From assembly GCA_902826885.1 (NCBI GenBank), contig CADEGL010000001.1, positions 163,006 through 227,005 of the forward strand: DNA of 64,000 bases, in the 5' to 3' direction. The DNA comes from an uncultured Alphaproteobacteria bacterium (GTDB taxonomy: Bacteria > Pseudomonadota > Alphaproteobacteria > CADEGL01). The notes beneath the pieces are model-generated. The model saw only the letters and a program-made list of their open reading frames with translations. It was not told the origin of the DNA and did not search any database. The first letter of the stretch is position 1. The number at the start of each line of letters is the position of its first letter. A program made the translations under genes and the position numbers. This document shows positions 48,782 through 50,810 of this stretch, piece by piece.

Positions 48782-48856
48782 TATGGATAACACCTTCAAA
48801 TACCTACGTATTTTCCAATATCCATAATAACCTTTTATAGATATTTAGAAGGTTAT
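48782..48856. promoter_or_regulatory. AT-rich palindromic divergent operator/promoter region
   Basis: In strongly GC-rich surroundings this stretch is AT-rich and holds three dyads: TATGGATA (48782-48789) with TATCCATA (48819-48826), ATAACCTT (48827-48834) with AAGGTTAT (48849-48856), and the palindrome TACGTA (48805-48810). It separates the divergent MFS and alpha/beta hydrolase genes, so it is the likely site of both promoters and of a dimeric repressor or activator. No regulator gene is adjacent. Confidence 0.6.
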
Positions 48857-48891
48857 ATAGTCGTGACAACAATCCAGCGGAGCACACGGCT

Positions 48892-49713
48892 ATGACGTCT
48901 TGGAATTTGAGCAAACGGTTCGATTTCGCGGGCAATGAGATCGCCTACGAGGTGATGGGTAACGGCCCCCCGCTGGTCCTGGTCCACGGGTTTCCCGGCA
49001 ATTCCTTCTCGTGGCGCCATGTGGCGCCCGCCTTGGCGCGCAAGCACCGCGTCCACGTCTACGACATGCTGGGCTTCGGCCAGTCGGCCATGCGCGAAGG
49101 GCGCAAGGTCTTCGGGGATTCGCAGACCGATCTTCTGGCCGCGCTGCTGGAACACTGGAAACTGGATGCGCCGCTGATGGTGGCCCACGACATCGGCACC
49201 GCGCCCGCGCTCGGCGCCCATCTGTTCAAGTACCGTCAATACGGACGCCTGATCCTGCTGAGCGCGGCGGTGCTGAATCCATCCGTCTCGGCGAACTCCA
49301 TGCATGCGCGCGCGCATCTCAAGGCCTATCAGACCATGCCGGCCAAGCTGTACGCCCAAATCATGCGCGCCCATATCCCCACCACCATGCACACGGGCAT
49401 GAGCGAAGAGATTTTCCAGGGCTATTTCGGGCCGTGGAGCACGCCGGAAGGTCAGGCCGCCTATTACCGCTTTCTCGGCGATTTCGAGGAATCCTATCTC
49501 GACCGCGTCGAAGCGCATATGCATCAGGTCTTGCCCGAAACATTGATCCTTTGGGGCGACGACGACACCTGGATTCCCCTGGCACGCGGGGAAAAGCTGC
49601 AAAAGCTGATTCCACGCGCGGAACTGCGCCTGATCCCCAAGGCAGGGCACTTTCTGATGGACGATGCGCCGGAGGCCGTGACCCGCGAGATCGAAGCTTT
49701 CGCGATCAAATAG
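48892..49713 (+). CDS. Alpha/beta hydrolase with Asp nucleophile (haloalkane dehalogenase/epoxide hydrolase type)
   Basis: 273 residues. The oxyanion segment is VHGFPGNSFSWR near residue 31; the nucleophile elbow reads VAHDIGTAPA with Asp100, not the usual Ser or Cys. This H-D-x-G elbow is typical of haloalkane dehalogenases and epoxide hydrolases. The catalytic His is in KAGHFLMDDAP near residue 254 and the acid is probably in LWGDDDTWIPL. The Trp that follows the nucleophile in haloalkane dehalogenases is Ile, so epoxide hydrolase or a related ester/dehalogenase activity is more likely. It is the first gene after the AT-rich divergent promoter. Confidence 0.86.
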   Translation: MTSWNLSKRFDFAGNEIAYEVMGNGPPLVLVHGFPGNSFSWRHVAPALARKHRVHVYDMLGFGQSAMREGRKVFGDSQTDLLAALLEHWKLDAPLMVAHDIGTAPALGAHLFKYRQYGRLILLSAAVLNPSVSANSMHARAHLKAYQTMPAKLYAQIMRAHIPTTMHTGMSEEIFQGYFGPWSTPEGQAAYYRFLGDFEESYLDRVEAHMHQVLPETLILWGDDDTWIPLARGEKLQKLIPRAELRLIPKAGHFLMDDAPEAVTREIEAFAIK

Positions 49714-49765
49714 GCCTAAATCGCGAACCTAGGCGGGGGTAGGACAGCCCCGTCTCCCTAGCTAC

Positions 49766-49796
49766 AATCCCCTCGACGTGAGCCGTTGAGGGGATT
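49766..49796 (+). promoter_or_regulatory. Stem-loop that sequesters the ribosome site of the proline-racemase-family gene
   Basis: AATCCCCTCGAC (49766-49777) and GTTGAGGGGATT (49785-49796) pair over 12 bp with one G-U, leaving a 7-nt loop. The right arm contains the Shine-Dalgarno GAGGGG, which ends 6 nt before the ATG at 49800. In the folded RNA the ribosome site is fully paired. Because TTTT follows the stem, it could also act as an intrinsic terminator for the hydrolase gene 53 nt upstream. The dyad is seen directly; the regulatory role is inferred. Confidence 0.65.
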
Positions 49797-49799
49797 TTC

Positions 49800-50810
49800 A
49801 TGCTGAAGAATCGTTTCATCGACTGTATCTACACGCACACCGAGGGCGAGCCGACCTGCATCGTCCATCACGGCATCCCCTATCCTGCGGGCCTCGATAT
49901 CCTGGGCAAGCGCGCGTTCCTGGAGAAGAACTATGACTGGCTGCGCCAGTCGCTGATGCGCGAGCCGCGCGGACACCAGGATATGTTCGGCGTCTTCGTC
50001 ACACCGCCCTCCTCGTCCGATTACGACGCCGGCATGATCTGGATGGACGGCACCCATTTCCATGACATGTGCGGTCACGGCACCATCGCGCTCAGCATGG
50101 CGCTGGTCTCGCACAATCTGGTCCCGGTGACCGGCAACCGCACCAAGATCCGCTATGAAACCACCGCGGGCGACGTGACGGCCGAGGTCGCGTCCAACGA
50201 CCAGGCCGCGGAATGGACCCGCTTCGAGAACGTGCCCGCCTATGTGGCTGAGCGCGACATTCCTCTCGACGTGCCGGAGGTCGGGCGCGTGAGCGTCGAC
50301 CTCAGCTTCGGCGGCAACTATTTCATCCAACTAAACTGGGGCGACCGCCAGCCGCGCATCGCGCCGGAGAACGCGTCCTATTTCTCGCGGCTGGGCCTGC
50401 TCGTGAAGAAGCTATTCAACGAGAAGGTGAAAGTGGTGCATCCGACGAAGCCGCACATCAAGCATGTGGATTTCGTCACCATCTATCACGACGGCACCCT
50501 GCCCGGCGCCTTTTACCGCAACGTCCACGTCTTCTCGGACGGCAAGATGGACCGCTCGCCCGGCGGCACCGGCACCAGCGCCATGCTGGCCATGCTGGAG
50601 TCGCACGGACGGATCAAGATCGGCCAGACGATCAAATCCGAAGGCCTGTTAGGCAGCGGCACGTTCGAAGGCTGCATCGTGCGCGAGACCAAACTCGGCA
50701 ATCACCGCGCGTTCGTGCCCACGGTGAAGGGCACGGCCAACGTGATCGGCTATGCCAAGTGGCTGATGAGTCCCGACGACCCTGTCAGCAAGGGCTTCGT
50801 GATCTCTTGA
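49800..50810 (+). CDS. Proline racemase-family protein (hydroxyproline epimerase/dehydratase-like), second Cys replaced by Gly
   Basis: 336 residues. The proline racemase fold is shown by DMCGHGTIALSMAL with the first catalytic Cys91, FGGNYFIQL and the second catalytic loop DRSPGGTGTSAML. In proline racemase and 4-hydroxyproline 2-epimerase this loop is SPCGTG; here Gly255 stands where the second Cys (or Thr in trans-3-hydroxyproline dehydratases) would be. So a two-base racemisation is unlikely, and a dehydratase or an inactive or one-base enzyme is more probable. The codon is GGC, one base from TGC. The ribosome site is inside a strong stem-loop. Confidence 0.87.
   Translation: MLKNRFIDCIYTHTEGEPTCIVHHGIPYPAGLDILGKRAFLEKNYDWLRQSLMREPRGHQDMFGVFVTPPSSSDYDAGMIWMDGTHFHDMCGHGTIALSMALVSHNLVPVTGNRTKIRYETTAGDVTAEVASNDQAAEWTRFENVPAYVAERDIPLDVPEVGRVSVDLSFGGNYFIQLNWGDRQPRIAPENASYFSRLGLLVKKLFNEKVKVVHPTKPHIKHVDFVTIYHDGTLPGAFYRNVHVFSDGKMDRSPGGTGTSAMLAMLESHGRIKIGQTIKSEGLLGSGTFEGCIVRETKLGNHRAFVPTVKGTANVIGYAKWLMSPDDPVSKGFVIS

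Follow-up and report, generated by a model that had tools for sequence, protein, structure and literature searches.

A stem over the ribosome site of a proline-racemase-family gene: a possible insulator against upstream transcription

Genes and hairpins at the locus

The window analyzed is a stretch of 64,000 nucleotides from the genome of an uncultured Alphaproteobacteria bacterium; the features considered here are listed in Table 1. A gene coding for an alpha/beta hydrolase is followed, on the same strand, by a gene of the proline-racemase family, and two hairpins are found between them. The start codon of the second gene is sound: the N-terminus it defines is common to the orthologues at 98% (sister species) and 74% (next genus) protein identity.

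Table 1. Features of the hydrolase/racemase-family locus, in positions of the window
Feature	Position	Strand	Remarks
Hydrolase promoter-like sequence TTTTAT-17-TATAGT	48833..48861	+	10.6 bits; roughly in the top quarter among sampled divergent genes
Alpha/beta hydrolase gene	48892..49713	+	likely read-through source; 52 nt between stop codon and stem
Upstream hairpin GGCGGGG...CCCCGTC	49731..49755	+	between the hydrolase stop and the Shine-Dalgarno hairpin; GC-rich, without T-run
Promoter-like sequence TAGGAC-17-TACAAT	49740..49768	+	4.9 bits, weak; -10 at 49763-49768; predicted start near 49775
Hairpin left arm AATCCCCTCGACG	49766..49778	+	its first 3 bases close the TACAAT element
Hairpin loop TGAGC	49779..49783	+	sequence and folding
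Hairpin right arm CGTTGAGGGGATT	49784..49796	+	sequence and folding
Shine-Dalgarno sequence GAGGGG of the racemase-family gene	49788..49793	+	6 nt before the ATG
Proline-racemase-family gene, 336 aa	49800..50810	+	PF05544, E = 2e-91

In the racemase-family protein, at about 50549-50582, the motif DRSPGGTGTSA corresponds to DRSPCGTGTSA in the solved proline racemase 7pb3, so that a glycine occupies the position of the second catalytic cysteine; the 74% orthologue features the same glycine. NCBIfam equivalog scores are all below cut-off, so that the protein is probably not a proline racemase. A literature search returned no known leader RNA for genes of the family.

An AT-rich inverted repeat, ATAACCTTTTATAGATATTTAGAAGGTTAT, is present at 48827-48856, in the divergent promoter region of an MFS gene and the hydrolase gene, and looks like a repressor operator. 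Most of it is retained in the sister species, unlike the adjoining flank on the hydrolase side, which has diverged.

The hairpin at 49766-49796, separated from the ATG at 49800 by the bases TTC, is an uninterrupted stem of 13 bp, including one G-U pair, closed by a loop of 5 nt. Sequence and coordinates had been correctly given by the sequence-only reading, as had the position of the Shine-Dalgarno sequence in the right arm and the single wobble; the stem, reported there as 12 bp long, gains an extra pair at the loop. The isolated hairpin has a folding energy of -21.5 kcal/mol and, in the context of the leader, a z-score of -2.4 to -2.8, relative to dinucleotide shuffles. By folding prediction, the Shine-Dalgarno sequence is about 0% unpaired on transcripts starting up to 49760, and its opening would cost 11-18 kcal/mol when transcription starts upstream of 49766. 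The ribosome site is thus predicted to be fully paired, and thereby sequestered, on any transcript entering from upstream, in agreement with the earlier description of a stem hiding it.

The hairpin in its genome and in relatives

The genomic background was sampled over 767 kb, where 690 genes were called by a home-made gene caller and 674 leaders were folded. The leader of the racemase-family gene ranks 19th of the 674 in folding energy (top 3%); given this rank and the GC-richness of the genome, stability alone is not remarkable. An uninterrupted stem of at least 11 bp over the Shine-Dalgarno sequence is found at two of the 674 sampled starts, versus 0.0 in shuffles: the hairpin did not arise by chance from base composition.

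The second of these stems (G000 C13:61343-61372, corresponding to L071 1343-1372) carries GCAACC/GGTTGC repeats, and related GCAACC/GTTGC repeats are found just upstream. GCAACC/GGTTGC palindromes are repeated across C13:61298-61372 (L071 1298-1372); an SRPBCC/AHSA1 gene, whose ribosome site and start codon are covered by one of them, is followed, in the same operon, by an ArsR-type HTH regulator. As the motif is repeated upstream and such a regulator belongs to the operon, the stem is read as a probable operator; the region is likely to represent an autoregulated operon with a tandem protein operator.

Neither the 147-bp leader of the racemase-family gene nor the palindrome AATCCC-N12-24-GGGATT contained in its hairpin has a second copy in the genome, and the hypothesis of a repeat element or of a regulon was discarded on these grounds. 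A single 17-base match to the leader (C53) is a chance match within coding sequence.

Only three relatives were found among 385 genomes of the class, a close one (98%), another at 74% and a third at 52%. Scans of further contigs produced only a 98% match in genome contigs, and none in viral contigs. The block of the sister species (G001, L010/L085) reads AATCCCGCCAGCGCAAGCCATTGGGGGATT: the stem is rebuilt there with a bulged G and an extended outer end (ACAATCCC/GGGATTGT), reaching about -16 kcal/mol. Leaders of the next genus (G002, 74%) and of the most distant relative (G123, 52%) are of other sequence, and contain no such stem. In the comparison of related leaders, as proposed by the sequence-only reading, the sister species thus retains a modified stem, which neither the next genus nor the more distant relative shares.

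The hairpin stretch differs between the sister species at 9 of 34 positions (about a quarter), close to the 27-29% divergence of fourfold sites, and hence at an approximately neutral rate; 82% of intergenic windows show no greater difference than this. When random mutation of equal extent was simulated, an equally stable stem was left in 3-5% of the trials, with or without ACAAT and GGGATT held fixed. A reverse calculation (0.06%) was discarded as biased, the stretch having been picked for its stem. Since three others, among 13 intergenic hairpins examined likewise, show retention at or below 3%, the retention of the stem beyond what mutation alone would leave, marginal and derived from one species pair, is to be taken as suggestive only.

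Candidate promoters and read-through

Promoters were called by a two-box model (TTG-17-TATAAT-like), for which 191 divergent genes of the genome served as training set. Read-through from the hydrolase gene into the racemase-family gene is plausible, because of the strong promoter call upstream of the former and of the 86 nt separating its end from the ATG of the latter. The last hydrolase ribosomes, halting 52 nt short of the stem, would not be expected to open it.

Within the leader itself, the best call is weak: its score falls short of the 25th percentile for divergent genes and is comparable to the wrong-strand median, and the candidate -35, TAGGAC, is without the usual TTG. The best call in the leader of the sister species is TAGCAC-17-TACAAT (5.8 bits), while next-best calls, in either leader, score 1.2-1.5 bits. 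The distance from the end of the -10 to the ATG is 31 nt here and 30 nt in the sister species; in the genome, the -10-to-start distance peaks at 30-40 nt. The call amounts to a hint of an own promoter for the racemase-family gene. Conservation of the promoter block was rejected as support, since 25% of intergenic windows are equally conserved.

The candidate -10 overlaps the left arm of the hairpin, and a transcript from there would lack most of that arm: that something must open the stem, as had been argued from the sequence, does not follow. For a start at 49775, the predicted cost of opening the Shine-Dalgarno sequence is about 6.6 kcal/mol, versus the 11-18 of longer transcripts; in the sister species, the predicted values are 3.8 kcal/mol for the internal start, versus 9-12.5 for longer transcripts. 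A moderate cost is retained without the left arm, by predicted pairing of the Shine-Dalgarno sequence with the coding region.

The explanation judged best, which is advanced tentatively, is that the hairpin may be a passive insulator, silencing messages which run in from the hydrolase gene. Transcripts from the hydrolase promoter, running on, would carry the whole hairpin, and the ribosome site of the racemase-family gene would be shut on them. The gene would be translated, instead, from its own promoter, whose transcript, starting near 49775 without most of the left arm, would leave the ribosome site more accessible. All three components are our inference: that the gene has an internal promoter with this start, that hydrolase transcripts read through, and that translation is affected. 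The comparison with relatives is consistent with such a role: the sister species, which keeps a rebuilt hairpin, also has the hydrolase neighbour, and a different gene takes the place of this neighbour in the next genus, where the hairpin is absent.

Similar layouts are documented in phages. In phage T4 gene e (lysozyme), a helix hides the Shine-Dalgarno sequence on the long transcripts coming from upstream, while the gene's own promoter encodes the 5' strand of the helix, so that its transcripts are without it (PMC3014915). In the leaders of T4 I-TevI, I-TevII, I-TevIII and segB, and of Aeh1 mobE, the ribosome site is hidden only on read-through transcripts; these homing endonucleases are under phage late promoters, and the late transcripts lack part of the stem, with experimental proof for I-TevI (PMC2988022). 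The locus described here resembles gene e in the predicted helix over the Shine-Dalgarno sequence on long transcripts, and would resemble it, if the candidate promoter is used, in the location of an own promoter in the 5' strand. It differs from it in that the gene is a bacterial metabolic one, the promoter is predicted and weak, and no temporal programme is known. With the I-TevI type it would share a ribosome site hidden on read-through only, and a promoter placed to drop part of the stem; what is proven by experiment for I-TevI is, however, a prediction in our case. Should the internal promoter prove real, the hairpin would work like those of gene e and of the I-Tev endonucleases.

Tn10/IS10 is also guarded against external promoters, as read-through transcripts fold over the Shine-Dalgarno sequence of the transposase; the fold corresponds to the terminal inverted repeat of the mobile element. 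Read-through transcripts would similarly fold over the ribosome site of the racemase-family gene, but no mobile element is seen at its locus.

Alternative explanations

Most stems of such length in the genomic sample are located from a few to about 60 nt past a stop codon, as terminators do, and many of them share a form in which an A-rich segment, a GC core and a T-rich segment follow each other. The hairpin, 52 nt past the hydrolase stop and with TTTTC at its 3' side, could belong with them, as an intrinsic terminator or attenuator acting on the hydrolase transcript, overlapping the next ribosome site by happenstance. This is, on balance, unlikely. The four T after the stem, indicated by the sequence-only reading as compatible with a terminator, are present (49795-49798), but two of them sit inside the stem, and the run is lost in the sister species, where ATTGTC, with TTGT in place of TTTT, accompanies a bulged stem. 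Moreover, all other intergenic stems of this kind in the sample keep a distance of 21 nt or more to the next start, with the exception of the ArsR-linked one, and the hairpin is not listed by a consensus terminator scan.

It is rather unlikely that the hairpin has no function, the G-rich Shine-Dalgarno sequence facing a run of C by accident, in a pairing tolerated at low expression. The near-neutral change of the stretch, at least as large as in about 80% of intergenic windows, would fit this possibility, as would the absence of the stem beyond the genus and an energy only within the top 3% of leaders. Shuffles, however, never yield an uninterrupted stem of this length over the Shine-Dalgarno sequence, and the stem of the sister species survives about nine changes, as would happen in 3-5% of cases under mutation alone. 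The hairpin structure is probably functional.

A conditional translational switch, where only transcripts with the whole hairpin are made and a ligand, a protein or a small RNA opens it, appears improbable. The nearly complete occlusion predicted for the Shine-Dalgarno sequence speaks for it, together with the weak score of the own promoter versus the strong one of the hydrolase; so does the upstream hairpin, which the sister species retains, one G-U pair being changed to G-C, and whose G-run would be able to pair with the left arm instead. The corresponding alternative duplex (49731-49741 / 49762-49772) is predicted at -12 kcal/mol here and at -21.6 kcal/mol in the sister species; here, however, it falls far short of the stability of the hairpin that would have to give way, and pairing between a G-run and a C-run comes cheap in this sequence. 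An Rfam scan of the window detected no riboswitch or cis-regulatory RNA above gathering score, the leader featuring only a chance-level match to a CRISPR repeat (E = 2.5). In addition, the stem is absent beyond the genus and no conserved unpaired core for ligand binding is present, as both loop and inner stem differ between the sister species. Of the devices suggested from the sequence alone, known riboswitch families were discarded for lack of an Rfam match, and a thermosensor because the stem is far too stable: in folding predicted at all temperatures to 85 C, less than 2% of the Shine-Dalgarno sequence is open at 85 C.

Quite improbable, too, is a palindromic DNA operator, where a repressor would cover the -10 and the transcript start, RNA pairing being incidental. 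The only other stem of at least 11 bp over a Shine-Dalgarno sequence, among the 674 starts, is the probable operator of the ArsR-type operon, and the sister species retains the outer half-sites AATCCC/GGGATT. Their spacing, however, changes there from 19 to 18 bp, and no regulator is found among the neighbouring proteins scanned; the 1-bp change, along with the uniqueness of the palindrome in the genome, disfavours the protein-bound operator also contemplated by the sequence-only reading. Finally, a two-hairpin switch confined to the genus, in which the upstream GGCGGGGGTAG strand pairs with the left arm and frees the Shine-Dalgarno sequence, in response to an unspecified signal, is very improbable.

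The passive insulator, which we tentatively prefer, would be ordinary in kind and local in its effect, with no sign of a new kind of switch or of a new class of regulators. If true, it would provide a chromosomal case, in a metabolic gene, of a strategy for which phage T4 offers the best documentation, and would show how genes in dense bacterial clusters can stay deaf to the transcription of a neighbour.
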